Source: a virus. Taken from it: a stretch of 64,000 bases of DNA. Positions 4,091-63,461 of the stretch are shown in pieces. The position numbers were made by a program, and so were the translations under genes. Under the pieces are notes generated by a model. The model did no database searches. It was not told the DNA's origin and saw only the letters and a program-made list of their open reading frames with translations. The first letter of the stretch is position 1, and the number at the start of each line of letters is the position of its first letter. The stretch is from the IMG/VR virus record IMGVR_UViG_3300031963_000041, positions 40,495-104,494 of that record; one strand, written 5' to 3'.

Positions 4091-5650
4091 ATGTTTCTCA
4101 CATACTTGATGCTGGCTGTGGCGCTGTGCCTCAGCGCCATCGCCGCATTCTATTCGATCATAGGTCTCACTGCCATATTTGCCGCGGCTGTGATTCCTGT
4201 GGCCGTCATGGGAACCATATTGGAGATAGCCAAACTAACGGTCACTGTATGGTTGCATGAATACTGGCATCGTTGTAAACGAGCCATGAAAATATACTTG
4301 GTGCCTGCGGTGGGTATGCTGATGTTGATCACTTCCATGGGCATCTTTGGCTTCCTGTCAAAGGCCCATCTAGATCAAGCAGTTCCCACTGGGGATGTGG
4401 CCGCACAAGTGGCCTTGCTAGACGAAAAGATAAAGACACAGCGAGACAACATCGAAGCCGCCCGACGTGCCCTGGCCCAGATGGATGCGGCTGTGGACCA
4501 AACACTCAGCAGATCATCTGACGAGAAGGGTGCTGACAAAGCCGCGGCACTGCGCCGTGCTCAGGCCCGTGAGCGTGGCAACCTGCAAGGAGACATCTCT
4601 CGCGCACAGACCGAGATAGCAAAATTAAACGAACAACGGGCACCCATAGCCGCAAATCTACGCAAAGTAGAAGCCGAGGTAGGTCCAATCAAATACATAG
4701 CGGCCTTGATCTATGGAGACAATCCTGATGCCAACTTACTGGAAAAGGCCGTGCGTTGGGTGATCATAATACTTGTGGTAGTGTTTGATCCCTTGGCCAT
4801 ATTCATGTTGTTGGCCGCCACTGAGAGTTACAAGTGGGAAAAATACGGTGCTCGAGATGATCCCGATGAACCAGAAAATCCGCCACCTGACAGCCCAGTG
4901 ATGGATCGCATAAACGAATGGCGCGACAAAATAAAAAAATGGAGGCAACCCAATGGTACCAATGCTGATGATGGCCAACCTATTGCCCAGGATCTGGCTA
5001 GACAACCTGACAGAGATGATGCTGATGTTCAACCCACCGCTCCGATGGTGGCTATCCCACCTACGCAATGGGGCGGGCAAGATCTAACAAAACAAATCGT
5101 TGAAAATAATCGGCCCGGTGAACCTGTTTATGTCGACATGCCGGACATTGTCACTGTGCGTCCGGATGTGCAGTATGTAGGTGATGCCGATGAAGAAGAA
5201 ACTCCTGAAGAAAAAGATCCTGTAAAAAGGGCCAAGCGCCAATGGAAAGCGGACAATCCTGATGACACTTTACACAGACACGAAAAATTGTTGGCACAGG
5301 GCAAGATAGAACGACTACCATGGGAACAGAGTCTACAACTGCAGGCAGATGATCAAGAACAATATGCCAATGTTGATTTTGGAACACGATTCCCTACAAC
5401 TCCCGGTCGTGGGGATGCGTTTATCCGTGTAGATTTCCTGCCAACTAAACTGTTCAAATGGAATGGTGCGAAATGGATTGAAGTGGACAAAGAAATCACT
5501 GATTCATTCACCTACAATGATGAGTATATCGAATATCTAATCGCCAAGATCGGTTCTGGTGAGTATGATGCTGATCTGCTCAACGAAAACGAAAGACAAC
5601 AAATAGAAGCTAGGCTACGAGATGATCCCAAATTCAACGGTCCAGCATGA
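4091..5650 (+). CDS. Large membrane and coiled-coil protein, 519 aa
   Basis: The N-terminus carries three hydrophobic helices within about 95 residues (starting MFLTYLMLAVALCLSAIA), followed by a long charged coiled coil (about residues 100-200, DEKIKTQRDNIEAARRALAQ), another membrane segment (VRWVIIILVVVFDPLAIFML, about 225-245) and a Pro/Asp-rich cytoplasmic tail of 270 residues. The layout resembles an uncharacterised inner-membrane protein of marine T4-type phages. It overlaps clpX by ATGA, so the two are co-translated, which hints at a membrane-linked role in protein handling; this is inference. Confidence 0.75.
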   Translation: MFLTYLMLAVALCLSAIAAFYSIIGLTAIFAAAVIPVAVMGTILEIAKLTVTVWLHEYWHRCKRAMKIYLVPAVGMLMLITSMGIFGFLSKAHLDQAVPTGDVAAQVALLDEKIKTQRDNIEAARRALAQMDAAVDQTLSRSSDEKGADKAAALRRAQARERGNLQGDISRAQTEIAKLNEQRAPIAANLRKVEAEVGPIKYIAALIYGDNPDANLLEKAVRWVIIILVVVFDPLAIFMLLAATESYKWEKYGARDDPDEPENPPPDSPVMDRINEWRDKIKKWRQPNGTNADDGQPIAQDLARQPDRDDADVQPTAPMVAIPPTQWGGQDLTKQIVENNRPGEPVYVDMPDIVTVRPDVQYVGDADEEETPEEKDPVKRAKRQWKADNPDDTLHRHEKLLAQGKIERLPWEQSLQLQADDQEQYANVDFGTRFPTTPGRGDAFIRVDFLPTKLFKWNGAKWIEVDKEITDSFTYNDEYIEYLIAKIGSGEYDADLLNENERQQIEARLRDDPKFNGPA

Positions 5651-6846
5651 AAGAAGATACTTCATACGAACTTTGCAGTTTCTGCAACAAACACAAAGAC
5701 GATGTTAAAAAACTCATAGTGGCCAATGATGTGGCCATCTGCAACGATTGCGTGGATCTTTGCCAAAAACTCTTGCAAGAGGATCCGGTAACGAGAGAAC
5801 ACAATCACACAGACATTGATCCTCAAGAACTCAAACGTTATCTAGATCAGTATGTGATAGGGCAGGACCGTGCCAAGGTTGTCTTGGCAGTGGCCATCGC
5901 CAATCATTACAAACGCATACAGAATCGCGATCCTGAAATAGAACTAGACAAGGCCAATATCCTGATGCTGGGCCCCACAGGATCGGGCAAGACCCTGCTG
6001 GCTCGCACCGTGGCACGTTATCTCGACGTGCCTTTTGCCATCGCAGATGCCACTAGCATAACCGAAGCCGGATATGTGGGCGATGATGTAGAAAGTCTCA
6101 TACAGCGATTGCTCACTGCCGCTGGTGGCGATGTGGAAAAATGTCGTCGTGGTATAATATTTGTTGATGAAATTGACAAGATCGCTCGAAAAAGCGAATC
6201 AACATCTATCACCAGAGATGTGAGTGGTGAAGGTGTGCAACAGGCCCTGTTGAAGCTGGTAGAAGGCACAGTATGCCGAGTTCCGGCTGGTGGCGGCCGC
6301 AAACACCCTGGTGGCGAAATGATCGAAATAGACACTGCCAATATACTGTTCATTGCCGGCGGCGCATTCGTGGGCCTAGACCAGATAGTGAAGAAACGAC
6401 TGTTCGGGTCCTCCATGGGATTCAATGCTGAAGTCAAAGTATCAGGTGACGTGGATCTACAAAAGACCATGCCCGATGATCTGGTAAAATTTGGTCTGAT
6501 ACCTGAATTCGTCGGCCGTTTCCCTAGTTGGGTCAGCCTAGATGAACTGACCACGGATGATCTGGTGCATGTGCTCACAGATACCAAGAATTCATTGATA
6601 CGTCAATATCAACACCTGTTTGCTTCAGACAGCATAGATCTTGATTTCGAGAACGAGGCCTTGACCACCATAGCACAGCGTTCTGCAGATTTCGGTACTG
6701 GTGCCCGCGCCTTGCACAGCGAACTTGAGCGTGTGTTGATGCCACACATGTTCGCTATCAAACGCTATCGTGATCGGGGGATAAACCGCGTAGTTATTAA
6801 CCGAGAGCAAATAAATAACCCACAACCCGTTTACAAGGAGGAATAG
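5647..6846 (+). CDS. clpX: ATP-dependent Clp protease unfoldase ClpX
   Basis: 399 aa against about 424 in E. coli. AAA+ unfoldase that recognises substrates and feeds them to ClpP. The zinc-binding domain has C10, C13, C32 and C35; Walker A is GPTGSGKT (109-116), Walker B IIFVDEID (170-176), and the GYVG pore loop is at 142-145. KSESTSITRDVSGEGVQQAL is strongly conserved. The ClpP-docking loop reads SSMGF, matching the IGF loop of cellular ClpX. It follows a membrane protein by ATGA overlap and precedes a bS21 gene with a strong AAGGAGG site. ClpP paralogues lie at 30.3 and 32.5 kb and ClpS at 7.9 kb, so the phage may run its own complete protease. All key residues are present. Confidence 0.96.
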   Translation: MKEDTSYELCSFCNKHKDDVKKLIVANDVAICNDCVDLCQKLLQEDPVTREHNHTDIDPQELKRYLDQYVIGQDRAKVVLAVAIANHYKRIQNRDPEIELDKANILMLGPTGSGKTLLARTVARYLDVPFAIADATSITEAGYVGDDVESLIQRLLTAAGGDVEKCRRGIIFVDEIDKIARKSESTSITRDVSGEGVQQALLKLVEGTVCRVPAGGGRKHPGGEMIEIDTANILFIAGGAFVGLDQIVKKRLFGSSMGFNAEVKVSGDVDLQKTMPDDLVKFGLIPEFVGRFPSWVSLDELTTDDLVHVLTDTKNSLIRQYQHLFASDSIDLDFENEALTTIAQRSADFGTGARALHSELERVLMPHMFAIKRYRDRGINRVVINREQINNPQPVYKEE

Positions 6847-7398: not shown

Positions 7399-7836
7399 AT
7401 GACTAAAATCACATCTTTTGATCTCACCCCCTTCTATCGTAATACCATTGGCGTCGACCGCTTGTTCGACCGTATCATGGATCAGTTTGACCATGCCGCG
7501 CAAAGCCAGAACTACCCGCCTTACAACATCCTGAAAACAGGAGAAGACACCTATGAAATCCAGGTGGCAGTGGCTGGGTTTGCCGAAGGTGAAGTGAATG
7601 TAGATTTCCATGAAGGACAGTTGGTGATCACCGGTGAAAAGAACACCGATGACTCAGAATTGAACTATCTACATCGCGGTATCTCGGCTCGCAAGTTCCT
7701 GCGCACATTCCAACTGGCTGATTATGTAGAGGTTCGCGATGCTGTGATGAAAGACGGCATCTTGAACGTGCATCTACAGCGCATCGTGCCCGAAGAAATG
7801 AAGCCAAAGCGTATTGCAATCTCATACGCAAAATAA
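7399..7836 (+). CDS. Small heat-shock protein (Hsp20/IbpA type)
   Basis: 145 aa, typical for IbpA-like alpha-crystallin chaperones that hold unfolded proteins without ATP. The N-terminal SFDLTPFYRNTIGVDRLFD matches proteobacterial IbpA, and the crystallin domain runs from about residue 35 (YNILKTGEDTYEIQVAVAGF) through LHRGISARKFLRTFQLADYV. ATG 7399 follows AAAGGAG. Hsp20 genes are common in T4-type cyanophages. Here it lies between clpX/rpsU and clpS, making a protein-quality-control block. Confidence 0.93.
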   Translation: MTKITSFDLTPFYRNTIGVDRLFDRIMDQFDHAAQSQNYPPYNILKTGEDTYEIQVAVAGFAEGEVNVDFHEGQLVITGEKNTDDSELNYLHRGISARKFLRTFQLADYVEVRDAVMKDGILNVHLQRIVPEEMKPKRIAISYAK

Positions 7837-7876
7837 TATAATAGCGTAAATACAGTGGAGGGCACCCGCCCTCTAC
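7814..7876 (+). promoter_or_regulatory. clpS promoter region and 5' hairpin
   Basis: TTGCAA (7814-7819), 17-nt spacer, TATAAT (7837-7842) and a GTAAATAC late-type box (7846-7853) lie at the end of hsp20. A 9-bp hairpin with an ACCC tetraloop (GTGGAGGGC 7855-7863 with GCCCTCTAC 7868-7876) would form at or near the 5' end of the mRNA, probably as a stabiliser. It lacks a T-run, so it is not a standard terminator. Confidence 0.65.
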
Positions 7877-7895
7877 TGAGGACAAAGGGAACGAC

Positions 7896-8216
7896 ATGTC
7901 AGAAACTGCTACACAACCCAAAACTAAAACAACCGTCAGGCCCAGAGAGGTGCTCAAAGAACCTCCCATGTTCAAAGTTATCTACATCAATGACAATAAA
8001 ACTGCCATGGAATTCGTGATTGAAAGCCTGGTAGAACATTTTGATTACAGCCCCTCAACAGCAGAAAAAATCACTTTCGACATCCATGAAGCAGGATCTG
8101 CAGTGGTGGCCGTGTTGCCCTATGAGATAGCCGAACAAAAAGGCATCGAAGTCACTGTGATGGCACGTGGTGCCGGGTATCCTTTACAGGTCAAACTAGA
8201 GCCAGATTCGGCCTAG
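7896..8216 (+). CDS. clpS: ClpS, N-degron adaptor of the Clp protease
   Basis: 106 aa, identical in length to E. coli ClpS. Cellular ClpS binds N-terminal Phe, Leu, Trp or Tyr and delivers substrates to ClpA. The core PPMFKVIYINDNKTAMEFVI matches the conserved ClpS stretch with the DDN/NDN loop, and VIESLVEHFDYSP and AVLPYEIAEQK follow. The charged N-terminal extension used for unfoldase control is present (TKTTVRPREV). No ClpA is in this window, so it either works with host ClpA or has been adapted to the phage ClpX. It ends 4 nt inside a convergent phosphoesterase gene. Confidence 0.92.
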   Translation: MSETATQPKTKTTVRPREVLKEPPMFKVIYINDNKTAMEFVIESLVEHFDYSPSTAEKITFDIHEAGSAVVAVLPYEIAEQKGIEVTVMARGAGYPLQVKLEPDSA

Positions 8217-23548: not shown

Positions 23549-23778
23549 TTGGCAGCAGGTTTCTTGGCTCTCACTGCTTTGGCACGGACAGCAGGTTTCT
23601 TTTCCCCAGCAGGTTTTTTGGCAGCCGGTTTTTTCTTAGGCGCCGCAGCCTCGGAGTATTGTGTGGACATAGGTATCACACCAGGTGTGGTCTGTGGTGC
23701 TTCAACTTTGTAAGGGGCCTCTGGGCAAGGACTTACGGTGGGCTTGGAACCAAAAAACTTTTTTAAAAATGCGAGCAT
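23545..23778 (-). CDS. Lys/Ala/Pro-rich basic protein, 77 aa
   Basis: [17 protein letters not shown] is followed by a low-complexity [15 protein letters not shown] tail of the kind found in histone H1-like or AlgP-like proteins. GGAG lies 7 nt before the start on the - strand. It overlaps the SpeD-like gene by ATGA. The tail probably binds DNA or other polyanions. Promoter: TAAATA on the - strand at 23805-23810. Confidence 0.75.
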
Positions 23779-23804
23779 TGCAGTCTCCTTTGTTTTATAT
23801 AGTG

Positions 23805-23810
23805 TATTTA
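23805..23810 (-). promoter_or_regulatory. Late-type promoter, - strand
   Basis: The - strand reads GTGTAAATACAC, a TAAATA core 27 nt ahead of ATG 23778. It is back to back with the + strand box at 23855, forming a divergent late control region of about 106 bp between genes. Confidence 0.5.
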
Positions 23811-23854
23811 CACAGCATATTATCGAAACCTAGCATATTGCACTGCAATGTAAC

Positions 23855-23860
23855 TAAATA
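23855..23860 (+). promoter_or_regulatory. Late-type promoter of isocitrate lyase
   Basis: AACTAAATA ends 25 nt ahead of ATG 23886, with CAGGAGGAAAC in between. Spacing and composition match the boxes at 10049 and 13373, which implies that aceA is expressed late. Confidence 0.5.
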
Positions 23861-23885
23861 TCCTGGCTCAACAGGAGGAAACACC

Positions 23886-25163
23886 ATGCAAGACCGTAGA
23901 TGGAAGGTATACAAACTGCAACAAGAATGGACAGAAAACCCGCGCTGGACCGGAATCAAACGTGATTATTCAGCCGAGGACGTGGTGCGTTTGCAAGGTT
24001 CCAACCCCATAGAATACAGTCTGGCACGGCGTGGCGCCGAAAAATTGTGGCGTTTGCTACATGAACAAGATTATGTCAACACCCTGGGAGCACTCACGGG
24101 CATGCAAGCCCTGCAACAGGTCAAGGCCGGTTTGAAGGCTATATATTTGAGTGGGTGGCAAGTGGCCGCTGATGCCAACTTGGCTGGCGCCATGTATCCT
24201 GATCAGAGCCTGTATCCCGCAGACTCTGTGCCAGCAGTGGTGCGTAGGATCAACAATGCTTTTACCAGAGCAGATCAGATCGCCTGGATGGAAGACCAAG
24301 AAGATCGAGATTTTTTCGCACCCATCGTGGCTGACGCAGAGGCAGGATTTGGTGGTGTGCTCAATGCGTTCGAACTCATGAAGGCCATGATCGAAGCCGG
24401 GGCCGCAGGTGTGCATTTTGAAGATCAATTAGCGTCCGTAAAGAAATGCGGACACATGGGAGGAAAAGTCCTTGTTCCAACACGAGAAGCCATCAATAAA
24501 CTTATTGCCGCTCGTCTCGCTTCTGATGTTATGGGAGTGCCTAGTCTTGTTATTGCTAGAACAGATGCCGAAGCCGGCGATCTTATCACTTCAGATATTG
24601 ATCCTAACGACGTTCCTTTTCTTACTGGTGAAAGAACTGTGGAGGGTTTCTATCGGACCCGAGCAGGATTCGACCAAGCAGTCAGTAGAGCCCTGGCCTA
24701 CTGTCCTTACGCAGATCTCGTATGGTGCGAAACAGGCAAACCCGACCTCGACTTCGCCAAGCGATTCGCCGAAGCCATACACCGACAGTTTCCGGGCAAG
24801 ATGTTAGCCTACAACTGCTCACCATCATTCAACTGGAGGAAGAACCTAGATGCAGACACAATTGGCCGTTTCCAACGTGAACTTGGAGCAATGGGTTACC
24901 GTTTTCAATTCATCACACTTGCTGGATTCCATGCTCTTAATCATGGCATGTTTGACCTTGCTCATGGCTATGCTAGGGACGGCATGTCTGCTTTCGTGGA
25001 GTTACAAGAGCGTGAGTTCGCGGATGCGAGCCGTGGTTTCGAAGCTGTCAAACATCAGAGAGAAGTAGGAACCAGTTACTTTGACCGCGTGACTACCACA
25101 GTGGAGGCTGATGCTTCCACCCAGGCTCTCAAAGGCTCAACAGAAGAAGAACAGTTCCACTGA
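23886..25163 (+). CDS. aceA: Isocitrate lyase
   Basis: 425 aa against about 434 in E. coli. It cleaves isocitrate to succinate and glyoxylate, the entry step of the glyoxylate shunt. The catalytic signature KKCGHMGGK has C188; the substrate and Mg2+ stretches [43 protein letters not shown] and [10 protein letters not shown] are all present, and the end STEEEQFH is the canonical C-terminus. ATG 23886 has a strong GGAGG; a longer frame from 23685 lacks support. No malate synthase is in the window. Complete and probably active, likely acquired from a host lineage. Confidence 0.96.
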
Positions 25164-25465: not shown

Positions 25466-26095
25466 ATGTTAGAAACCATATGTGAAACATTAGTAGAGGC
25501 ATACCGCCGCAACTGGATCACCAGTCGAGACGGCAACGTCAGCATTCGGCATCATGATCGAGATCATTTCTACATCACACCATCAGGAGTGAGAAAGCAG
25601 ACCCTACAACCAGACCAGTTCAAGAAGATCATGATTCTTGAAAATGGTCCAGTGTCTCTCTGGCGAGAAGATTATTACACTGACATCAGCGCCAATCTCA
25701 AACCCAGCGGCGAGATTCCTTTGCACTTTGGACTGCAACGACGCATGGGACAACATGCCTCGGAGGTGCGTGTGGTAGTTCACTTGCATCCAACATACTG
25801 TGTGGCGGCCATGCACCGTGGCATCAATTTAGGCGACATTGTTGCGGACTTTCCAGAACTCAGTAGATATACCAAGGTAGCACCCAATGTGGGAGATGTG
25901 CCGCCTATAAGCCAAGAACTGGCAGATCGTTGCCACGAAAATTTACAATTAGATCAACAAGGCAACATCGCCTTTGACATCGTGGGCATCCGTGGACATG
26001 GTGTGGTTGCTATCGATACCTCACCGTGGCGTGCGTTTGAACACATAGAACGGCTGGAACATATCTGCAAGATAGTGTTGGCCTCGGGAGCGTGA
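25466..26095 (+). CDS. Class II aldolase/adducin-family protein
   Basis: 209 aa, the size of FucA/AraD/MtnB. SRDGNVSIR and ITPSGVRKQTL form the phosphate-binding region; the Glu of SGEIPLHFG and the zinc ligands in HLHPTYC and IRGHGVVA are kept. Members are zinc-dependent sugar-phosphate aldolases, epimerases or the MtnB dehydratase of methionine salvage; by eye I cannot choose. A methionine-salvage role would link it to the SpeD-like gene, but that is speculation. Confidence 0.85.
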   Translation: MLETICETLVEAYRRNWITSRDGNVSIRHHDRDHFYITPSGVRKQTLQPDQFKKIMILENGPVSLWREDYYTDISANLKPSGEIPLHFGLQRRMGQHASEVRVVVHLHPTYCVAAMHRGINLGDIVADFPELSRYTKVAPNVGDVPPISQELADRCHENLQLDQQGNIAFDIVGIRGHGVVAIDTSPWRAFEHIERLEHICKIVLASGA

Positions 26096-26706
26096 TGCAG
26101 TTCGTCAGCGATCGCGACGTGTATGACTCATGCCCACCACAGTGGTTGTGGGTCTATGACAAACTCATAGTGGCACGAAGACAGGGCATCGCCGCTGGAC
26201 CGGCTGGTATTCCCGTACCATGGTCCGGAGAATATGTGATAAGACCTATCACCAACATCCGCATGATGAGTCGAGGTGCGCAGATCGTGTGGATGGAAAA
26301 AGGTGACAGTGACACAGTGCCCGATGGATTTTTCTGGACCCAGGTGCTCGAAGGTCCGCATGTGTCAGTGGACTACCATTGGGGCCAACAGCATCTCACG
26401 GTGCAAGGTTTCAGAGATGATCCTCGGAGATTGGATCGTTTTTCACGGTGGTGTCGAACGGATTTAGATCGGCCTTTTCCTGGGATGTTGCACGATCTCA
26501 AGTATTATCAGGAATGGATCAACGTAGAATACATCGGCGATACAGTGATCGAAGTGCATCTACGATACAATGATGATTTCGCCAATCATGATAGTGATGA
26601 GATCTGGCCTGTATGGCCCGAATCCAGCCAACAACAGCCTCCCGGTACACAGTGGTATCACAGCCCTGCTGGTAGTAGATTGGGCTTCTGGATCAAGGAT
26701 AAGTAA
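26095..26706 (+). CDS. Phage protein with ATP-grasp-like features, 203 aa
   Basis: The ATG overlaps the aldolase stop. VYDKLIVARRQGIAAGPAG, then YVIRPITNIRMMSRGAQIVW and GFFWTQVLEGPHVSVDYHWG, are segments of an uncharacterised phage family whose order faintly recalls ATP-grasp ligases, but a complete ATP site is not visible. The last third is rich in Trp and acidic residues. Function unknown. Confidence 0.65.
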   Translation: MQFVSDRDVYDSCPPQWLWVYDKLIVARRQGIAAGPAGIPVPWSGEYVIRPITNIRMMSRGAQIVWMEKGDSDTVPDGFFWTQVLEGPHVSVDYHWGQQHLTVQGFRDDPRRLDRFSRWCRTDLDRPFPGMLHDLKYYQEWINVEYIGDTVIEVHLRYNDDFANHDSDEIWPVWPESSQQQPPGTQWYHSPAGSRLGFWIKDK

Positions 26707-26710
26707 TTTG

Positions 26711-27421
26711 ATGCTCCTATTCATATACATCCTGGTGATGACACACATCACCATAGCTTGTGTCACACTTTACTTGCATCGTAGCCAGGCACATAGAGGT
26801 GTGACATTTGATCCACGTGTGGCACATTTCATGAGATTTTGGCTGTGGCTCACCACAGGCATGGTCACCAAACAGTGGGTGGCCACACACAGAAAACATC
26901 ACAGATTCACTGACGCGGAAGGTGATCCGCACAGTCCGCAAAATGAAGGAATTTGGCAGATTTTATTAGGCGGTGCTTTTTACTATGCCTGGGCCGCAAA
27001 AGACAAAGCCATGGTCAACCAGTATGGTGTGGGCACGCCCGATGACTGGGTAGAGCGTCACATCTATGCACCATTCAACTGGTTGGGGGTGACCTTGATG
27101 TTCTTTATCAACTGCATGATTTGGGGCTGGGACTGGGGTTGGTTGCCTTGGCTATGGCAGATGATTTGGATCCCACTGTGGGCAGCCGGCGTCATAAACG
27201 GCCTGGGACACTGGTGGGGTTATAGGAACACTCAAACCAAAGACTATTCCACTAATATTGTGCCCTGGGCATTCTTCATCGGTGGTGAAGAACTACACAA
27301 CAATCATCATGCTGATCCAGCTTCGCCTAAACTCAGCCAAAAACCCTGGGAATGGGATCTAGGATGGACTTATATCAAAGGGCTAGAACGATTTGGTTTG
27401 GCCTACAACATCAAGTCTTAG
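26711..27421 (+). CDS. Fatty-acid desaturase
   Basis: 236 aa integral-membrane di-iron enzyme of the stearoyl-CoA desaturase type. The three histidine clusters are HRSQAHR, HRKHHRFTD and HNNHHADP, each between pairs of helices. It is shorter than most cellular members (about 280-400), mainly at both ends. It would place a double bond in membrane acyl chains and change fluidity during infection. ATG 26711 is chosen; TTG 26708 is adjacent. It overlaps the convergent gene by 11 nt. Confidence 0.92.
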   Translation: MLLFIYILVMTHITIACVTLYLHRSQAHRGVTFDPRVAHFMRFWLWLTTGMVTKQWVATHRKHHRFTDAEGDPHSPQNEGIWQILLGGAFYYAWAAKDKAMVNQYGVGTPDDWVERHIYAPFNWLGVTLMFFINCMIWGWDWGWLPWLWQMIWIPLWAAGVINGLGHWWGYRNTQTKDYSTNIVPWAFFIGGEELHNNHHADPASPKLSQKPWEWDLGWTYIKGLERFGLAYNIKS

Positions 27422-30322: not shown

Positions 30323-30904
30323 ATGTCGACCATGATCCAAGACAAAGACGATGTTGCATACTCGCCAGGTGACGATCTCAAAAAAAGTGGCATCTACACT
30401 TTTATGGGTGAAGTAGACGCTGAGTCCATGTTGCCCATCATTGAGTGGATCTTGCATGAAAACTACATAGTCAAGAAAAAGAAAAAAGAACTCATACTGA
30501 TGATCTGCAGTCGTGGCGGAGACATGGAAGAGGCCTTTGCGCTGATCGATGTCATGAACAGCAGTTCGATCCCCATCAAAACCGTGGGCCTGGGTCAGAT
30601 AGCCAGTTGTGGTCTGTTGATATTCCTGGCAGGCACCAAAACTCGCAGAGTGCTCACGCCCAACACTTCCATACTCAGCCACCAGTATTCATGGGGCAGT
30701 GATGGCAAGCATCACGAACTGTTTGCTATAACCAAGGAATTTGGATTGGCCCAACAACGGATGATCGATCACTACAGTGCTACCACTGGGCTGGATGAAG
30801 ATACCATCAAAACCAAATTGTTGCCTGCCAATGATGTTTGGCTCAGCGCCGAGGAAGCACTGGCACTGGGCATCTGTGATCACATAGCCAACGTCAGCCG
30901 TTAG
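30323..30904 (+). CDS. ClpP-like serine protease, diverged paralogue
   Basis: 193 aa. The nucleophile motif is GQIASCGLLIF with Ser95 (cellular ClpP: GxAASMG), the His is in ILSHQYS (H120) and the Asp in NDVWLSAEEALALGICD (D171). SRGGDMEEAFALID replaces the usual NSPGGS region. The catalytic triad is complete but the handle region differs from the canonical ClpP at 32520. The two may form a mixed tetradecamer, as known for ClpP1/P2 pairs of mycobacteria and cyanobacteria. Convergent with a large - strand gene. Confidence 0.85.
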   Translation: MSTMIQDKDDVAYSPGDDLKKSGIYTFMGEVDAESMLPIIEWILHENYIVKKKKKELILMICSRGGDMEEAFALIDVMNSSSIPIKTVGLGQIASCGLLIFLAGTKTRRVLTPNTSILSHQYSWGSDGKHHELFAITKEFGLAQQRMIDHYSATTGLDEDTIKTKLLPANDVWLSAEEALALGICDHIANVSR

Positions 30905-32519: not shown

Positions 32520-33110
32520 ATGCCCAATCTAGTGCCTATCGTGCTGGAACAGACTAGCCGTGGAGAACGCAGTTATGACATCTACAGCCGCCTGCTGAGA
32601 GATCGCATCATCATGCTGGATACAGACGTAAACTCACATTCAGCCAGCCTCATAGTGGCGCAGATGCTGTTCCTAGAAGCGGAAAATCCTGACAGAGACA
32701 TCTTGTTCTATATCAACTCACCAGGCGGGTCAATCACAGCGGGCATGAGCATCTATGATACCATGCAGTTCATCAAGTGTGATGTTTCTACCATAGTGTG
32801 TGGATTGGCCGCGTCGATGGGCTCCATGCTGGCCTGCGCCGGCACTGCTGGCAAGCGGTTCATCCTGCCACACAGCCAGCACATGATCCATCAACCTCTG
32901 GGTGGAGCTGAAGGACAGGTCACTGAAGTGGAGATCCGTTACAAAGAACTCATGCGCTGGAAGAAGACCTTGACTGAACTCTATGTCCAGCACACCGGCA
33001 AAGACTATGCGACTCTGGAGAAAGATATGGATCGAGACAACTGGATGACAGCACAACAGGCCGTGGAGTATGGCCTAGCTGATCGCATCATCACCCAACG
33101 AGATGTCTAA
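32520..33110 (+). CDS. clpP: ATP-dependent Clp protease proteolytic subunit ClpP
   Basis: 196 aa, typical length for a mature Clp[35 protein letters not shown] with Ser99, [13 protein letters not shown] with His124 and [18 protein letters not shown] with Asp173 give an intact catalytic triad and oligomer interface. Starts behind AAGGAGAAAC; a TATACT -10 lies at 32480-32485. It overlaps the radical SAM gene by 8 nt. Paired with phage ClpX at 5.6 kb. Confidence 0.96.
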
Positions 33111-35148: not shown

Positions 35149-35212
35149 GGTTAGTGCGCACTAACCCAGTGTTTTTGCCCAGGTTGACCAGAAATCGCCA
35201 TTTTGCTATAAT
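35149..35212 (+). promoter_or_regulatory. Stem-loop plus early promoter cassette, copy 2
   Basis: A perfect 18-nt palindrome GGTTAGTGCGCACTAACC (35149-35166) followed by a short T-run, then TTGACC (35184-35189), spacer AGAAATCGCCATTTTGC and TATAAT (35207-35212). The 17-nt spacer is nearly identical to copy 1. Between stem and -35 it shares GTTTTTGCCCAGG with the copy at 49935. Confidence 0.9.
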
Positions 35213-38992: not shown

Positions 38993-39018
38993 GGCTACCA
39001 CGGTAGCCTTTTTTTTTT
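38993..39018 (+). terminator. Intrinsic terminator
   Basis: GGCTAC (38993-38998), loop CACG, GTAGCC (39003-39008), then ten T residues. It separates the HTH gene from the promoter at 39021. Confidence 0.92.
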
Positions 39019-39020
39019 GA

Positions 39021-39049
39021 TTGACCGGTAATTTCTTTTTTGCTATAAT
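39021..39049 (+). promoter_or_regulatory. Early promoter giving a leaderless mRNA
   Basis: TTGACC (39021-39026), 17-nt spacer and TATAAT (39044-39049). ATG 39055 is 6 nt downstream and no Shine-Dalgarno can fit, so translation must start at the 5' end. Confidence 0.8.
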
Positions 39050-49599: not shown

Positions 49600-49646
49600 T
49601 GCCCACTGACCCCGCGGTTGACCAGAAATAGCCATTTTGCTATAAT
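49594..49646 (+). promoter_or_regulatory. Stem-loop plus early promoter cassette, copy 4
   Basis: GGTTAGTGCCCACTGACC (49594-49611) pairs with one G-U in the RNA; loop GCCC. TTGACC (49618-49623), spacer AGAAATAGCCATTTTGC, TATAAT (49641-49646). The stem overlaps the methyltransferase stop codon. Confidence 0.9.
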
Positions 49647-49939: not shown

Positions 49940-49999
49940 GTGGGCACTAACCTACGGGTTTTTGCCCAGGTTGACCGAAATTTACCATTTTGCTATAAT
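49935..49999 (+). promoter_or_regulatory. Stem-loop plus early promoter cassette, copy 5
   Basis: GGTAAGTGGGCACTAACC (49935-49952) contains the upstream TAA; GTTTTTGCCCAGG follows, then TTGACC (49971-49976), 17-nt spacer and TATAAT (49994-49999), and TATAGTAAAT at the start region. It drives a long operon of small genes to about 52.5 kb. Confidence 0.9.
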
Positions 50000-52538: not shown

Positions 52539-52603
52539 GGTAAGTGCGCACTAACATAGCGATTTTAGGGTGGTTGACCAGAAATGGCATTTTCGGTTAT
52601 AAT
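52539..52603 (+). promoter_or_regulatory. Stem-loop plus early promoter cassette, copy 6
   Basis: GGTAAGTGCGCACTAACA (52539-52556), then TTGACC (52574-52579), 18-nt spacer and TATAAT (52598-52603), with TATAGTAAATGA following. The spacer is CAGAAATGGCATTTTCGGT-like, as in copy 3. Unlike the other copies it does not overlap the upstream stop. Confidence 0.88.
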
Positions 52604-53478: not shown

Positions 53479-53813
53479 GTCTTGACCCTTTGACTGACGC
53501 CAACTTTGATCTAGAACAACAGATCCTGCGATGCTGGAACATCGTGGATGACATCAGAGAGATCGTGGAAGATCTCCAAAGCGGACACATGGACCAGGCC
53601 GAAATGGTAGAGGCACTGACAGCCTACCGACAGGTCTATGCCAACCGTTTTGAGCGCACCTTCCGCACCTATGAAACCGTGTGTCGTGGCCTGCATGGGC
53701 TCAGGGCACAGGTCCGAGACTTTGAACTTGCCCAAACTGCTGGCCCAAAATCCGGCAAAATGGGCAAATCAAAGAAGCAGAAACCGGTTGACACAAAATC
53801 GGAATCTTGCTAA
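53475..53813 (+). CDS. Helical phage protein, 112 aa
   Basis: MSLDPLTDANFDLEQQILRC, then WNIVDDIREIVEDLQSGHMD and a coiled helix to FELAQTAGPKSGK with a Lys-rich end. The F-D-L-E-Q-x-I-x-x-C-W start is common to a phage family. The promoter at 53788 lies in its last codons. Confidence 0.76.
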   Translation: MSLDPLTDANFDLEQQILRCWNIVDDIREIVEDLQSGHMDQAEMVEALTAYRQVYANRFERTFRTYETVCRGLHGLRAQVRDFELAQTAGPKSGKMGKSKKQKPVDTKSESC

Positions 53814-53816
53814 AAT
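53788..53816 (+). promoter_or_regulatory. Early promoter with a leaderless 26-codon ORF
   Basis: TTGACA (53788-53793), 17-nt spacer, TAAAAT (53811-53816). ATG 53823 is 7 nt after the -10 and opens a 26-codon ORF that runs into the next gene. Confidence 0.7.
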
Positions 53817-56969: not shown

Positions 56970-57733
56970 CACCAAAACAACGTATCAACTACATTACAAA
57001 GTGGATTAAAAGTTATGCCACCAGACACAAAATCAATACCTTGGTGGTGGGTGTATCGGGCGGCATAGATTCGGCCGTGGTATCCACGCTGTGTGCTCGT
57101 GCAGGACTGTATGTCATTGCTGTGAGCATGCCCATCCGGCAAAGCGAACACACACATGATCTCAGCATGCGGCATGGACAGTGGCTGAAAGACACGTTTG
57201 AACTGGTGGATCACTTTGTTATCGATCTCACATCCGCCTTTGAACAATTTGAACATGCTACCCGTGTGTTCAGCGATGAACTGGCCTATGCCAACAGTCG
57301 TGCTAGATTACGCATGATGACCTTGTATCAATTAGCGCAAGCCAACTCCGGCATCGTTGTGGGCACAGGCAACAAGGTTGAAGACTTTGGAGTGGGGTTC
57401 TTTACCAAGTATGGCGACGGTGGTGTGGATATCAGTCCCATTGGAGACTGCATGAAAACTGAAGTGTGGGCCATGGGTCGTGAACTGGGCGTGTTGCAAG
57501 ATATCATTGATGCCGCTCCCACTGATGGTTTATGGGCAGATGGTCGCACTGACGAACAACAGTTAGGCATGACCTACGCCGACCTTGAAGTGGCCATGCG
57601 CATGGACCAGGGCGAAATACAGTGCGATAACAAAGAGCTCAAGAAAAATCTAAAACGATATCGAGAGATCCGTGCTCGCAATCTACACAAGATGCAGGCT
57701 ATTCCGGTGTGTAAATTCAAAGATCAAGAATGA
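56966..57733 (+). CDS. nadE: NAD synthetase (ammonia-dependent NadE)
   Basis: 255 aa, near E. coli NadE (275). It amidates nicotinate adenine dinucleotide to NAD+. The ATP-pyrophosphatase P-loop VVGVSGGIDSAV (residues 28-38), ANSRARLRMMTLY, VVGTGNKVEDFGVGFFTKYG and DISPIGDCMKTEVW are all conserved. No glutaminase domain, so it uses ammonia. ATGA overlap with the radical SAM gene downstream, which links the two. It could restore NAD+ consumed by host defences or by phage metabolism. Confidence 0.95.
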   Translation: MTPKQRINYITKWIKSYATRHKINTLVVGVSGGIDSAVVSTLCARAGLYVIAVSMPIRQSEHTHDLSMRHGQWLKDTFELVDHFVIDLTSAFEQFEHATRVFSDELAYANSRARLRMMTLYQLAQANSGIVVGTGNKVEDFGVGFFTKYGDGGVDISPIGDCMKTEVWAMGRELGVLQDIIDAAPTDGLWADGRTDEQQLGMTYADLEVAMRMDQGEIQCDNKELKKNLKRYREIRARNLHKMQAIPVCKFKDQE

Positions 57734-59136
57734 CGCCTTGGCAGGAATTTTATCTAAGCATAAAAGATTCATCATGGCCGGACTGCGACCATGAACAAGA
57801 TTTTTTATCTCTACCACAGTGGATACAGGATGAGTGTCAACAAGTTCATGGTTATGTGATAGGTAGTTACAGAAATCAGCCTCGATATCAACACAAAACA
57901 TTTCCCATAAAAACTGCCACAGCTTGTCAACTCAAATGGAACTGGAGCACAGTTTATCTTACGACAGAAAATACTGCCAGTTGTCATCGCACCAATCATC
58001 ACAAGTTTGATATCGATGTATTTGATTTTCACAACACTCCTAGCAAGTTGGACGATAGATCTCGCATGCTCCAGGGATTTTGGCCCGAAAAAGGTTGTGG
58101 TTATTGTCGAGATATAGAAACGGCCGGAGGACAAAGTGACAGGATAACCAATCTTGATATGCCTGGAATGTTTGCTCCGCCAGAACTGGATGATGATCTT
58201 GTTGCTATCCAAGTCACTCCTCGTATATTAGAAGTTTACTTTGACAATGTCTGTAATTTGAAATGTGTGTATTGCGGTCCGCATTTCAGCAGTTTATGGG
58301 ATGCTGAAAACAAAAAACATGGTAAGTTTGAAAAAAATGGTTTGATCATCTCGAATACATTTAAGAAAAGTCCTGATATCGCAAAAAATAAAACCAAGAT
58401 GTTTGAGTGGATATCGCAACACGGACATAGCCTTACCAACTTTAATTTCCTTGGCGGCGAGCCTTTGTTCCAAAAAGATCTCGATGATTGTCTGGATTTT
58501 TTTGATCACAACCCAATGCCGGAACTAGAGTTCCAGATTTTTACCAATCTCAATGCTACTCCGGCTCGAGTGTCTGCGGTGGTAAGCAAAATTAAAAATC
58601 TCATTGACAAACAACATCTCAAAACTTTTGTGGTAACTGCCAGTCTCGATTGCTGGGGACCTGAACAAGAATATGCACGTTTTCCTCTCAAACTAGACAT
58701 TTGGGAAAAAAATTTCCGATACCTGCTTGATCAATCTTGGATTAGATTAATAGTAGGTAGCACACTGACTCCTCTCACTATCAAGACTCTGCCTGATCTT
58801 ATTGAGCGCATCAATCAATGGAGAAAGATACGCCATGTATCTCATTACATGAACAGTGCAGAATCACCGTTGCACATGCATGTTGATATTTTAGGCGATG
58901 TTTTCGTGGATGATTTTAATAGAGCTATCCAGATCATGCCCGAGAATGATGCGGAGCAGATCAATATCAAAAAATATCTGCAAGGCATTGCTCAAGAAAG
59001 CGCCAGCAAAGGATTTGACACAGAGGAAATCATAAAGCTCCGAGAATTTTTAACCGAACTCGATCGGCGTAGAGCAACCAATTGGCAACGAGTTTTTCCT
59101 TGGTTAGAGCCTATTTTTCAGCAGGTTGACCAATAA
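57730..59136 (+). CDS. Radical SAM protein with N-terminal twitch-like domain, 468 aa
   Basis: The N-terminal module has C66, C85, C123 and C126 (TASCHRTNHHK, GCGYCRDIE); the radical SAM core is VCNLKCVYCGPHFSS (C175, C179, C182), followed by FNFLGGEPLFQ and FTNLNATP. Same domain order as the 440-aa protein at 33103, yet diverged. AT-richer codon use than nadE. Substrate unknown; no adjacent precursor peptide is obvious. A promoter lies in its last codons. Confidence 0.88.
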   Translation: MTPWQEFYLSIKDSSWPDCDHEQDFLSLPQWIQDECQQVHGYVIGSYRNQPRYQHKTFPIKTATACQLKWNWSTVYLTTENTASCHRTNHHKFDIDVFDFHNTPSKLDDRSRMLQGFWPEKGCGYCRDIETAGGQSDRITNLDMPGMFAPPELDDDLVAIQVTPRILEVYFDNVCNLKCVYCGPHFSSLWDAENKKHGKFEKNGLIISNTFKKSPDIAKNKTKMFEWISQHGHSLTNFNFLGGEPLFQKDLDDCLDFFDHNPMPELEFQIFTNLNATPARVSAVVSKIKNLIDKQHLKTFVVTASLDCWGPEQEYARFPLKLDIWEKNFRYLLDQSWIRLIVGSTLTPLTIKTLPDLIERINQWRKIRHVSHYMNSAESPLHMHVDILGDVFVDDFNRAIQIMPENDAEQINIKKYLQGIAQESASKGFDTEEIIKLREFLTELDRRRATNWQRVFPWLEPIFQQVDQ

Positions 59137-59154
59137 TCCAAAAGGTATTATAAT
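59126..59154 (+). promoter_or_regulatory. Early promoter
   Basis: TTGACC (59126-59131), 17-nt spacer, TATAAT (59149-59154), overlapping the upstream stop. ATG 59161 follows 6 nt after the -10 but opens only a short frame; the real gene starts at 59184 behind TTGGAG. Confidence 0.75.
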
Positions 59155-59889: not shown

Positions 59890-60188
59890 TAGAACAAGGA
59901 CTTTGGGAATACGATCAAGTGGATGCCGAAGAGCGAGAACAACTAAAAAAGTGGTTGCGTGGCCTGCTACAGGAACGAGTGGTCACTGTGGAATTCGTCA
60001 AGGCCGATGGTAGCCCCAGGCGCATGGAATGCACACTGGCCGAGAGCGCAGGGGCTAAATATTCCACCAATGAAAGCACACGAAAAAAACCTCATCCTGA
60101 CACCTGCGTGGTCTGGGATACCAATCAAAACGCCTGGCGCAGTTTCCGCTGGGATCGTCTAAAACGGATCACATTCAATCTTGGCTAA
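59886..60188 (+). CDS. DUF2693/SH3-barrel phage protein, 100 aa
   Basis: [20 protein letters not shown], then [20 protein letters not shown] is the DUF2693-like SH3 barrel seen in many phages. A helical N-terminus ([15 protein letters not shown]) precedes it. It overlaps infA by 8 nt, so the two are translated together. Confidence 0.8.
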
Positions 60189-60399
60189 AGAAGAAGGCGT
60201 AAAAATGGAAGGCACTGTGGTTGACGTGCTACCCAATGCCATGTTCCGGGTAAAAATAGACGGGCACGAAAATCCTGTGATGGGCATCATTTCGGGCAAG
60301 ATGCGCATGCACAACATCAAGATCCTGCTGGGAGATAGGGTAGAGATGGAGTTCAGTCTCTACGACCTAACCAAAGGGCGCATCACCCGTAGGAGATAA
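60181..60399 (+). CDS. infA: Translation initiation factor IF-1
   Basis: 72 aa, exactly the length of bacterial IF-1, an OB-fold protein that binds the 30S A site during initiation. [20 protein letters not shown], then [40 protein letters not shown] and [12 protein letters not shown] match IF-1 throughout. TTG start inside the upstream gene. The last 105 nt are repeated at 62003 with eight synonymous differences, so the 3' end seems to have been replaced during insertion of the two genes that follow. Together with phage bS21 it suggests control over initiation. Confidence 0.95.
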
Positions 60400-61269
60400 A
60401 TGTTGTCTTTCTACATTGTGCCCAGTTTGGACACACACAATACCAAATTTACTTACGGTGAAGCACCGGAAAGATCCTGGTACTACGAATTTGTGACCGG
60501 AAAACAAGATCTCTTGATCACTGTGGGAGACAGTTGGACCTGGGGAGATAGTCTGGGTCAGATCGATTTTGACAAAGGAATCTTCGATGATATCACTCAC
60601 AGGACTTCGCATGTTTTTGGCAGACTGCTGGCAGACAAACTAAACAGAGACTTTCTCATGTTGGCCAAGTGTGGTGCTACCAATTCGGAAATACACAGAA
60701 TGGCGTTTGGGTATATCGATCAGATCAAATCAAAATATCGTAAAATTACTGTGGTAATCACGCTCACAGAATTAATGAGAGAAATCACAGGGGATCCATG
60801 GTGGTTAGACCCAGCGCCAACTGAAAATTCATTGGATGGATTCCTAACAGACTATGAATACAATATGCTGGCAACTTTTCATGCGGCCATGCTTGAGCAT
60901 CCTGATGTGCAATGGATCTTGGCAAGAAACTTTACAGTGTCCTATCCATCAAACATCAGTAAGTTTCCGTATATGCTGAAAAAAACCTGGGTTGATATCT
61001 TAGCAGAAGCACAAGAAGATAAATCATTGTATCCACAGGACGCTAGAATTGTCAGTCAGTTAGGATTTGTTCCGTTGGAAGAATATTTACAAAAACGATC
61101 GTTGCATCGGTCCTGGCGACGAGATTTATATGGTCTCATGAGTTCAGCTTCGCTGGCTATAGATTGGTTGATGGACAGTGATCTAAACTATAAAAAAGCC
61201 ACCAAACATCCCACTGAACGAGGGCATGAATTGTGGGCAGATTATCTATACGATATTGTAAAAGGATGA
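60400..61269 (+). CDS. SGNH/GDSL hydrolase-like protein, 289 aa
   Basis: ATG 60400 follows the infA stop directly. The nucleophile block is TVGDSWTWGD, block II-like KCGATNSEIHRMA follows, and HPTERGHELWADYL is block V with the catalytic-type His. SGNH enzymes cleave acyl esters, often O-acetyl groups on glycans. AT-richer than neighbours, and within the segment flanked by the infA repeats. It may act on host surface sugars or be a fibre-associated deacetylase. Confidence 0.82.
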   Translation: MLSFYIVPSLDTHNTKFTYGEAPERSWYYEFVTGKQDLLITVGDSWTWGDSLGQIDFDKGIFDDITHRTSHVFGRLLADKLNRDFLMLAKCGATNSEIHRMAFGYIDQIKSKYRKITVVITLTELMREITGDPWWLDPAPTENSLDGFLTDYEYNMLATFHAAMLEHPDVQWILARNFTVSYPSNISKFPYMLKKTWVDILAEAQEDKSLYPQDARIVSQLGFVPLEEYLQKRSLHRSWRRDLYGLMSSASLAIDWLMDSDLNYKKATKHPTERGHELWADYLYDIVKG

Positions 61270-61282
61270 TATAAAACTAATC

Positions 61283-61978
61283 ATGAAAAACAAAATTGTG
61301 GGGTTCGGGGATAGTTTCGTATTTGGCAGTGAACTTGATGACAACGACGACGGACATAACTCCTGGATCGGCCTATCGGCAAAAAAACTAGGAGTCACAT
61401 ATGAGACCACTGCTGTTCCAGGATGCGGTAACGAAAATATCGCTCGACAAATACTGACATATTTTTCTAACAATCCATCAGATGATGTGGTAGCAGTGAT
61501 CAATTGGACCTGGGGAGCTCGATGGGATTTTTATGTTCCAGGATTGGAACAATGGACCACGTTGGGTTTAACCTGTGTTCCTAGCAAACTGGCACCAATG
61601 GTAGGAATAGAAGAAGCAGAAAAAATACTGGAATTTTATAACAAATATCCTGGACATTCTACCTTATGGGACAAATGGCGGAGTCTGCAAACAATCTACA
61701 TGGTGCAAACATTTTTAAAACATAAAAAAATATCCAATATTCAGACTTACATGGATTATGAACTTTGGGACACTCAATGGCATGCTCCAGACTACATCAG
61801 GACCTTGCAAGATTTTACTAGGCCTTGCATGCAAAATTTTCAGGGTTTGAATTTCTTGGATTGGAGCAGGTCAAAGGGATTTACAGTCACCGACCCAGGT
61901 CTGCACCCCCTAAAAGAGGCTCATGATGCAGCCTGTGATTTGTGGGTGGATAGTTATGCCCAAGCATTAAAAGACTAA
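61283..61978 (+). CDS. SGNH/GDSL hydrolase-like protein, 231 aa
   Basis: MKNKIVGFGDSFVFGSELDD (nucleophile Ser in GDS), PGCGNENIARQIL (block II region) and the C-terminal LHPLKEAHDAACDLWVD (block V). A shorter, diverged relative of the gene before it. Also AT-rich. Both lie in the cargo between the infA ends. Late-type TAAATA (61976-61981) overlaps its stop. Confidence 0.82.
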   Translation: MKNKIVGFGDSFVFGSELDDNDDGHNSWIGLSAKKLGVTYETTAVPGCGNENIARQILTYFSNNPSDDVVAVINWTWGARWDFYVPGLEQWTTLGLTCVPSKLAPMVGIEEAEKILEFYNKYPGHSTLWDKWRSLQTIYMVQTFLKHKKISNIQTYMDYELWDTQWHAPDYIRTLQDFTRPCMQNFQGLNFLDWSRSKGFTVTDPGLHPLKEAHDAACDLWVDSYAQALKD

Positions 61979-62002
61979 ATATCTATATGCACATTAGTTT
62001 AA

Positions 62003-62107
62003 GGCAAGATGCGCATGCACAACATCAAGATCCTGCTGGGCGATAGGGTAGAGATGGAGTTCAGCCTCTACGATCTAACCAAAGGTCGCATCACACGCAG
62101 GCGCTAA
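62003..62107 (+). pseudogene. Duplicated 3' end of infA
   Basis: 105 nt that match the last 105 nt of infA (60295-60399) with eight differences, all synonymous; the encoded 34 residues are identical. There is no start codon or 5' part. The relic stop codon doubles as part of a TAAATA box (62105-62110). This looks like the original infA end, left behind when a 1.6-kb segment carrying its own infA 3' end recombined in. Confidence 0.9.
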
Positions 62108-62110
62108 ATA
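62105..62110 (+). promoter_or_regulatory. Late-type promoter (CTAAATA)
   Basis: CTAAATACC overlapping the infA relic stop, 17 nt ahead of ATG 62128 with AAAGGA between. Similar to the box at 63487. Confidence 0.5.
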
Positions 62111-62127
62111 CCATAAAGGAATGCTTT

Positions 62128-62559
62128 ATGGGATTCGTAAAAGGCAACGACGGTAAACCCCGTTCTATTAAAAATCCACTGGAAGGCTCGATAGGAGACG
62201 CCGATCTCGGTGAGGTCACGTTCCAGAGCATAACCATCGGCGGAAATGTTGCCGCCGCAAACATACTCACAAATGGCTATCGATATGCCAACGGTGTTGC
62301 AGTGGTATTCGGCGGTGGTAATGTTACTGCAAATTCAGTGAGTTACTCCCAGACCAATCCAGGAGACTGGCCCACAGTGCTAGCCAATGTGCAGGGCGCA
62401 CTGGACAGCGTGGCCAACACCGTGGCCAACATAGAAACAGGTAGCGGATTTAGTTTTATGGGACCTTACAGTAACGATGCCACAGCCGCCGCAGGCGGAG
62501 TGGCCATTGGTCAGGTGTATTTCAACAACTCTGGTGGGTTGGTAGTGAGGCAAACATGA
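62128..62559 (+). CDS. Tail-fibre or virion-surface protein, 143 aa
   Basis: MGFVKGNDGKPRSIKNPLEG, then TFQSITIGGNVAAANILTNG, YRYANGVAVVFGGGN and the end GVAIGQVYFNNSGGLVVRQ. Repeating Gly/Asn beta-strand pattern of T4-type fibre or neck-fibre proteins. Late-type promoter in front. ATGA overlap with the SOD gene. Confidence 0.78.
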   Translation: MGFVKGNDGKPRSIKNPLEGSIGDADLGEVTFQSITIGGNVAAANILTNGYRYANGVAVVFGGGNVTANSVSYSQTNPGDWPTVLANVQGALDSVANTVANIETGSGFSFMGPYSNDATAAAGGVAIGQVYFNNSGGLVVRQT

Positions 62560-63134
62560 TGGAAACAGCCGCCGCAATAGCAGAATTTATCAATCTAGTA
62601 GAAGCATCTACTCGTCCTGCCAAACTGGAAACCACTCCTTTGCCCTACGGGATGAAAGATCTAGATCCGGTGATGAGCGAAAAAACCCTGGATTATCATT
62701 TTGAGCATCTGGCCCGTGGCTACGCCAAACGCTACAACGCAGGTGAAGGCAACGCAGATTTCAATCGTGCTGGCAGTTTCTTGCACAACATGTTCTTCCC
62801 GCAGTTTCGTGCTCCCAAGAGCGGCAATCGCCCTAGAGGATCCAGCCTCAAACTCATCGAGCAAAAGTTTGAAGATTTTGATACATTCAAGGACTCAGTG
62901 AAAGAAACCGCCATGAAGATACAGGGATCGGGATGGGTATATCTATCCACTGCAGGCGAAATCAAGACCATCAAAAATCATGCTGTTCGCACTGACATAG
63001 CCTTGCTGATCGACTGGTGGGAACATGCCTGGGCCCTGGATTACCAAAGTGACAAAGAAGCCTATCTCAACAATGTGTGGCGCATCATCAACTGGGACAT
63101 CATCAACGAGCGCATTGGTATCATCGAGGAATAA
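62556..63134 (+). CDS. Fe/Mn superoxide dismutase
   Basis: 192 aa, typical length (SodB 193). LPYGMKDLDPVMSEKTLDYH supplies H48, FLHNMFFPQF supplies H77, and IDWWEHAWALDY supplies D153 and H157: all four metal ligands are in place. The usual HHxxY gateway stretch is changed (HFEHLARGYAKRY), so metal preference cannot be told. It would remove superoxide made in stressed or photo-oxidised hosts. Unusual place, between fibre genes. Confidence 0.88.
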   Translation: MMETAAAIAEFINLVEASTRPAKLETTPLPYGMKDLDPVMSEKTLDYHFEHLARGYAKRYNAGEGNADFNRAGSFLHNMFFPQFRAPKSGNRPRGSSLKLIEQKFEDFDTFKDSVKETAMKIQGSGWVYLSTAGEIKTIKNHAVRTDIALLIDWWEHAWALDYQSDKEAYLNNVWRIINWDIINERIGIIEE

Positions 63135-63137
63135 ACT

Positions 63138-63461
63138 ATGCAGTTAACGGAATCAGCACAGAGCAAGATACAAGACATATTCGCCGAGGAAAACAATGCC
63201 AATCTCAAACTGCGTGTGTTCGTGCAGGGCGGTGGTTGCTCGGGCATGCAGTATGGTTTCACATTTGATGAAGCACAAAACGAAGACGACTTTGATTTTG
63301 ATTACAATGGTGTCAAACTCTTGGTAGATTCCATGTCATGGGGCTACCTGCAAGGTGCTACAATAGACTACAAAGACGACATCATGGGCAGTAGTTTCAG
63401 CATAGAAAACCCCAACGCACAGACCACCTGCGGTTGCGGATCAAGTTTCTCACCTTACTAG
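63138..63461 (+). CDS. erpA: A-type Fe-S carrier, ErpA/IscA-like
   Basis: 107 aa. The three cluster-binding cysteines are in [13 protein letters not shown] (C34) and TTCGCGSSF (C98, C100), with the family's NPNA ahead of the pair. ErpA/IscA proteins hand [4Fe-4S] or [2Fe-2S] clusters to client enzymes. [18 protein letters not shown] is closest to ErpA of proteobacteria. Clients might include the two phage radical SAM proteins. Three nt behind the SOD gene. Confidence 0.92.

Follow-up and report, generated by a model that had tools for sequence, protein, structure and literature searches.

Large phages exchange accessory genes, and how a given gene block came to lie where it does is a question usually asked of finished mosaics in which the joints have been erased. 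The locus described here raises this question in an unusual form. The 3' end of infA, the gene for translation initiation factor IF-1, is present twice, and two cargo genes, termed S1 and S2, are lodged between the copies. Where did the second gene end come from, and with which gene was it joined? The locus is part of the window, i.e., a stretch of 64,000 nt (positions 40,495 to 104,494 of the 104-kb IMG/VR virus record IMGVR_UViG_3300031963_000041). We are confident, short of certainty, that an unequal, illegitimate crossover at a short shared sequence joined an infA-S1-S2-SOD parent to an infA-ORF143-SOD parent (SOD, superoxide dismutase), two related large phages. The joint is readable almost base by base. 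It displays which gene met which, how short the stretch was at which they met, and for what reason the product could have been viable. The features of the locus are as follows (window positions, strand, description, basis).

60181-60399, +: infA (translation initiation factor IF-1), complete, TTG start, read as that of parent A (Pfam eIF-1a, E 1.9e-19; relatives)
60295-60399, +: upstream copy of the repeated infA 3' end (repeat search, alignment, synonymous test)
60400-61269, +: S1, cargo gene 1, 289 aa, probable SGNH/GDSL hydrolase, begins right after the infA stop (GDS motif, weak)
61283-61978, +: S2, cargo gene 2, 231 aa, predicted SGNH-fold hydrolase; homologues of relatives lie in the same infA-SOD slot (model comparison, synteny)
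61987-62010, +: putative vestige, first 8 codons of the left parent's SOD, MHISLRQD, 8 nt past the S2 stop (L087/L090-type junctions)
62003-62010, +: GGCAAGAT, overlap of two parental matches, crossover placed here (L090 match 61282-62010; L013 match 62003-62213)
62003-62107, +: putative vestige, infA 3' end of the right parent (repeat, alignment, tree, L013 match)
62128-62559, +: ORF143, read as the right parent's resident gene; its homologue directly follows infA in L013 (synteny)
62556-63134, +: Fe/Mn superoxide dismutase (SOD), complete, read as the right parent's, other N-terminal type METAAAIAEFINLVEA (Pfam Sod_Fe_C, E 1.3e-22)
63138-63461, +: IscA/HesB-like Fe-S protein, part of the conserved neighbourhood, on its right side (Pfam Fe-S_biosyn, E 8.1e-20; synteny)

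The Repeated infA End

The last 105 nt of infA recur downstream of S2. The two copies differ at 8 of 105 bases, i.e., they are 92% identical overall, and their first 38 nt are identical; an unaided repeat finder reports the pair as 112 nt at 91%. Both copies encode the same 34 residues plus stop, and all eight base differences are synonymous. The recurrence, the eight differences and the common 34 residues had been pointed out in an earlier note made from the sequence alone, and are confirmed by alignment and translation. In simulations 8 changes were placed randomly on either copy under four settings. An all-synonymous outcome was obtained in at most 2 of 100,000 trials (0, 1, 1, and 2 in the four settings). 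Drift of a dead infA duplicate is rejected on these grounds. Therefore, both infA ends diverged within working genes, which bears out the claim of the note that they had evolved in functional genes before being joined.

The cargo is AT-richer than its surroundings. GC is 0.39-0.42 across S1 and S2 vs. 0.47-0.51 in the adjoining DNA; a comparable trough is also found at 57.75-59.25 kb. S1 has a GDS motif and sub-threshold matches to Pfam GDSL families (E 0.039 and 0.088). Its structure model has a pLDDT of 39 and provides no usable fold, and its sequence has no match among PDB sequences. By its motif S1 is likely an SGNH/GDSL hydrolase. Homologues of S1 in viral contigs were found only in the window's own phage, using six short peptide patterns which may miss distant ones.

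For S2 the picture is clearer. The model has a pLDDT of 81.8, and the top PDB matches are structures of Escherichia coli TesA (best E 1.9e-6; TM-score by target 0.65-0.70, rmsd 5-6). Residues G9, D10, S11, H208, and H214, i.e., the GDS block and two C-terminal His, are invariant in 13 of 13 aligned sequences. The Pfam search returned no GDSL match for S2 (best DUF6071, E 0.065), the search of PDB sequences a single match (E 0.78), and PHROGs no match for either S1 or S2. The prediction that S2 is an SGNH-fold hydrolase is supported by the model comparison. Two patterns applied to bacterial and archaeal genomes hit 18 stretches, none of which was confirmed as a relative of S2. Thus, of the AT-richer segment with two SGNH genes that had been described earlier, the base composition and, by the model, the fold of S2 stand; for S1 the assignment is likely only.

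The infA-SOD Slot in Related Phages

An infA search of viral contigs yielded 422 relatives, of which the best 80 were taken. In all, 92 loci were classified (L001, L003-L080, L087-L099). Left out were L002 and L081-L086, which repeat the window's phage, L100-L103, in which no infA was found, and later loci from the same contigs. In 46 of the 92 loci the SOD match starts at most 32 nt after the infA stop; in 33 infA and SOD are separated by 157-2,736 nt; in 11 SOD is not in the compared stretch, and in 2 infA is not. Counted by distinct infA DNA there are 36 SOD-adjacent loci, 22 filled ones and 11 without SOD. Ten of the 33 filled slots were found via S2, which inflates the filled share. Phages of this group therefore have a cargo slot between infA and SOD, empty in some loci and variously filled in others.

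What fills the slot is diverse. There are S2-type genes and radical-SAM genes, of which two were scanned and one falls just below the Pfam cut-off. A family that BLAST links distantly to S2, often paired, has sub-threshold matches to DUF6473. Further fillings are a metallophosphatase-type gene with a glycosyltransferase behind it, and a RimK-like ATP-grasp gene. Homologues of S2, 69-76% identical, are positioned between infA and SOD in all ten loci L087-L096. L013 has the arrangement infA-ORF143-SOD. Our literature search, which most subscription papers lay outside of, showed nothing on the infA-SOD slot or on infA in such phages among the titles listed. The joint points to a fixed place of accessory-gene exchange in large phages at which the frequency of scars can be counted.

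As an individual example, L029 (5216-6588) carries directly after infA a gene pair of about 207 and 250 aa from the family distantly linked to S2 by BLAST, again with sub-threshold DUF6473 matches. Similar pairs exist in L061, L032, L036, L042, and L053 and seem recurrent at the slot; in the last four no SOD was found in the compared stretch.

A second infA end was found in none of the 89 infA loci from other contigs, some of which are near-identical to each other; it is restricted to the window's phage. Weak second infA-like matches in other loci comprise 13-16 nt or have a protein E above 0.02, e.g., L029 at 5597-5692 (E 0.028) and the L017 group (0.03-0.06). They were treated as chance.

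The slot preserves traces of earlier occupants elsewhere. In L092, L094, and L095 infA is followed by a 511-residue radical-SAM gene. Between that gene and S2 (L092:2374-2520, the same in L094 and L095) is a remnant of the other radical-SAM type, its final 45 codons, which are 96% identical to L088. The three loci are identical in the relic stretch and are counted as one event; microhomology at the L092 relic was sought and none was resolved. In L017 the 157-nt gap after infA and before SOD (4308-4470) holds what is left, in decayed form, of that radical-SAM gene end. L018-L021 and L023 share infA DNA and gap size with L017, the locus that the relic scan covered. Judged from these alignments, the relics fit a left-anchored replacement which spares the 3' end of the previous occupant. 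Ragged replacement at the infA-SOD slot is not unique to the window's phage; it also appears in L092/L094/L095 and in L017.

The Joint: A Probable SOD Start Meets an infA End

Past the S2 stop the window continues with 8 nt and then with ATGCACATTAGTTTAAGGCAAGAT, which reads MHISLRQD. The same spacing of 8 nt between the S2 stop and the ATG of SOD is present in 7 of 7 distinct S2-SOD junctions of relatives. In these the SOD N-termini are MHHTIRQD (L087, L090), MHHTIRHD (L091), and MNNSIRQD (L093); those of L088, L092, and L096 are different. In an ungapped comparison of 35 nt (61976-62010) the window matches L090 at 26, L093 at 25, L087 at 24, and L091 at 22 positions. Each of these scores is reached by a single one of 127,930 window positions, the joint site. 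L088, L092, and L096, three of the seven distinct junctions, match at 15-16 of 35, which is chance level.

As the last 8 nt could stem from infA alone, a control was run on 61976-62002 (27 nt), i.e., without them. L090 and L093 then match at 19 positions each, L087 at 17, and L091 at 16; in the order L090, L093, L087, and L091 these scores are reached by 2, 1, 3, and 27 of 127,948 positions. The match to the SOD start, present in four of the seven distinct relatives, holds without the last 8 nt.

Two parental matches overlap at this point. With default BLAST scoring, the L090 match extends from 61282 to 62010 and the L013 match from 62003 to 62213, through the infA stop and the infA-ORF143 spacer, in which a single base differs from the window. 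The overlap is 8 nt, 62003-62010. It is situated in the start of the SOD ascribed to parent A and at codons 39-41 of infA. Taken from infA, GGCAAGAT matches L090 and L087 in the SOD register at 7 of 8 positions, a value reached by 1 and 2, respectively, of 212 infA 8-mers. This points to shared sequence at the crossover. The L090 counterpart is GACAAGAT, one base off the window; the true shared run of the parents may have been shorter than 8, 6 in a case like L090. Where the infA match begins on the left varies with the scoring: under softer settings L013 matches from 61998 on, and a match to L004 starts at 61987.

The joint thus consists of the first 8 codons of a SOD and the last 34 codons of infA, mutually out of frame; the SOD frame stops after 19 residues. 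The complete SOD of the window is of the other N-terminal type; its N-terminus resembles that of L003, less closely that of L008, as expected if this gene came from the other parent. Two different parental arrangements meet: L087/L090-type S2-SOD to the left of the joint and L013-type infA-ORF143 to the right. The comparison proposed in the earlier note, with a relative lacking the SGNH pair, turned out positive: L013 matches the downstream copy and its right flank unbroken to 62213. The second of the note's alternatives, recombination with a related phage, is supported. The sequence comparisons support a recombination reading which places the joint to about 8 nt and names SOD as the second gene involved.

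Kinship of the Two infA Ends

In a tree of infA ends the two copies are sisters (support 99/93) inside a 12-row clade; the tree has 102 columns, its bootstrap is not settled, and the downstream copy has zero branch length. Eight of the 10 relatives in this clade are nearer to the downstream copy and two are equally far from both. Outside the clade the nearer copy varies both ways (rows with GRMR in place of GKMR were left out of this comparison). By this tree both infA ends come from the window's own clade. Since the two ends are sisters, the parents were probably close relatives. The closest other infA, among the matches listed, is about 86% identical in protein; the infA proteins of S2-bearing relatives are only about 53-64% identical. 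Because of the latter distance S2 probably reached the lineage of parent A earlier.

Several observations speak against the two-parent reading, among them the three S2-SOD junctions at chance level and the scoring-dependent left edge of the infA match. S1 has been found only in the window's phage, and close parents of either type were not found among the viral-contig loci listed (best 80 of 422 for infA; S1 and S2 searches). That phages with exactly infA-S1-S2-SOD and infA-ORF143-SOD existed is what we infer. Directly seen are the two kinds of parental junction in relatives, the vestige of a SOD start, the overlap, and the synonymous-only divergence of the infA ends.

A Proposed History and Its Alternatives

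The simplest history would be a single out-of-register crossover. One cell would have been infected by both parent A (infA-S1-S2-SOD) and parent B (infA-ORF143-SOD). The SOD start of parent A would have been joined to the middle of infA of parent B at the 8-nt overlap. The recombinant would then read infA(A)-S1-S2-[SOD(A) first 8 codons / infA(B) last 34 codons]-ORF143-SOD(B). Such a product would keep one complete infA and one complete SOD and would combine two alternative cargos, with a SOD start and an infA end left as vestiges. The joining would be the work of a recombinase, from phage or host, or of end joining at short homology. A RecA-like protein is encoded in all three large contigs searched, RecT in none.

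The same anatomy would result from a double exchange, in which the left end of a donor fragment was brought in by homologous recombination, inside infA or upstream of it, and the right end by way of GGCAAGAT. The left flank beyond infA would then be recipient DNA. L092, in which the edge at infA is clean and the right one ragged (new radical-SAM gene, old tail), speaks for such a course; against it, a double exchange needs an additional event. The relatives compared have flanks that look mosaic, so that flank affinity does not decide between single and double exchange, and the left junction is not locatable in the sequence. We regard the double exchange as a tenable variant, somewhat improbable on its own and contained in the confidence given to the crossover reading as a whole. 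Generalizing from here, one might suppose that the infA-SOD slot is recombinase-free and refilled by infA-anchored, right-ragged exchanges, the scars being reversible, integrase-free cassettes. This is speculative and rather unlikely. If true, recombination between the infA ends would cleanly delete S1-S2 and restore infA-ORF143-SOD.

Three other explanations dispense with the two parents or with the event itself. Integrative elements that insert at the 3' ends of conserved genes duplicate the gene end around their cargo. At first sight this fits: a gene end is duplicated around a cargo, infA is restored, its displaced end lies beyond the cargo, and the copies share their first 38 nt. The earlier note had pictured a cargo that came in at the infA 3' end and restored the gene, as integrative elements do that target the ends of essential genes. 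Read in this way, S1-S2 would be a mobile unit with a replacement infA end, inserted by site-specific recombination. However, Pfam detects no recombinase in S1 or S2, and the two families searched in the large contigs, Phage_integrase (PF00589) and Resolvase (PF00239), gave no match in any of the three, the controls having matched 14 of 14 and 10 of 14 genomes. In addition, the right edge of the cargo matches the start of another gene, SOD, and infA is not a recurrent target in any of the 89 loci from other contigs. We consider the integrative origin extremely improbable, and the claim is abandoned. An in-place tandem duplication of infA followed by loss of most of the second copy would agree with the two ends being each other's closest relatives. 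Yet a dead copy would not give eight of eight synonymous differences, and a SOD start before the second copy and an ORF143 after it, as in L013, would be unexplained; this origin is very unlikely. Finally, all sequences are metagenome assemblies, and two phages of one sample might have been fused by the assembler. However, the entire region 60181-62600 (2,420 bases) is 100% identical in two further IMG/VR contigs, 3300008259 and 3300032116, one of them 209 kb and the other 315 kb long. Outside this region, 20 kb of the window's record are the same in the 315-kb contig; against the 209-kb contig, approximately 19.5 kb were compared and showed 1 substitution and an indel of about 56 bases. Because the identical 2,420 bases are present in two contigs, one of which differs from the record elsewhere, a one-off assembly join at the repeated infA end is unlikely. 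Moreover, an assembler should not be misled by an overlap of only about 8 nt. A chimera of two phages would come as a great surprise. An exact 26-nt infA pattern was found, beyond the window, only in these two contigs, and a DNA comparison of the 3.2-kb region with phage records returned no match.

Comparison With Known Systems

Crossover between the two parents as proposed here is a known kind of phage mosaicism, and the locus is a well-preserved instance; its useful parts are the clarity of the scar and the slot. Promoter-stem-loop cassettes reportedly guide shuffling, a notion attributed to Arbiol in 2010 and to Comeau in 2014. Mosaicism at short homologies has been described for temperate lambdoid phages with Red/RecT-type proteins, where RecET-promoted recombination at 5-13 bp is cited as rare (10^-8), and illegitimate and homeologous recombination are judged to contribute to a similar extent (PMC2327257). 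The likeness consists of a joint at very short shared sequence between related phages. The present case differs from what is described there in that contigs of 316-344 kb with a RecA-like protein and without a RecT match are involved, that the joint is out of register, and that cargo was added instead of swapped.

Relaxed homologous recombination with Rad52-like recombinases of phages similarly involves exchange between diverged related phages. In that work, crossovers are inside homologous regions, whereas the right joint here is between non-homologous genes; illegitimate events are judged there to be probably much rarer in the evolution of phages than homologous ones, which speaks against the crossover reading (PMC3945230). 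In T4-like cyanophages, blocks of orphan genes are gained and lost between widely shared genes. This compares with accessory genes bordered by shared genes at the infA-SOD slot; the cyanophage case considered is a 9.5-kb deletion, unlike the gain of cargo here (PMC4503421).

Further Features of the Window

Within the AT-rich trough upstream of infA, a radical-SAM gene (57730-59136) is positioned between an NAD synthase and a 137-aa ORF. Among the loci compared, close homologues (61-63%) are present only in L026 and L096. The region may represent a second cargo slot.

Eight copies, 63-100% alike, are present of a promoter-like unit that is 40 nt long and has TTGACC and TATAAT-like boxes. By repeat comparison they are located at
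172-211, 35173-35212, 39010-39049, 49607-49646, 49960-49999, 52563-52602, 53777-53816, and 59115-59154.
The last copy is a few genes upstream of infA.

The window further encodes an isocitrate lyase family gene (23685-25163; Pfam ICL, E 3.5e-107), with a class II aldolase (25466-26095) and a fatty acid desaturase (26570-27421) nearby. A phage-encoded Clp set, i.e., ClpX, ClpS, and two different ClpP-family genes, plus HSP20, is found at 5647-6846, 7399-8216, 30323-30904, and 32520-33110.
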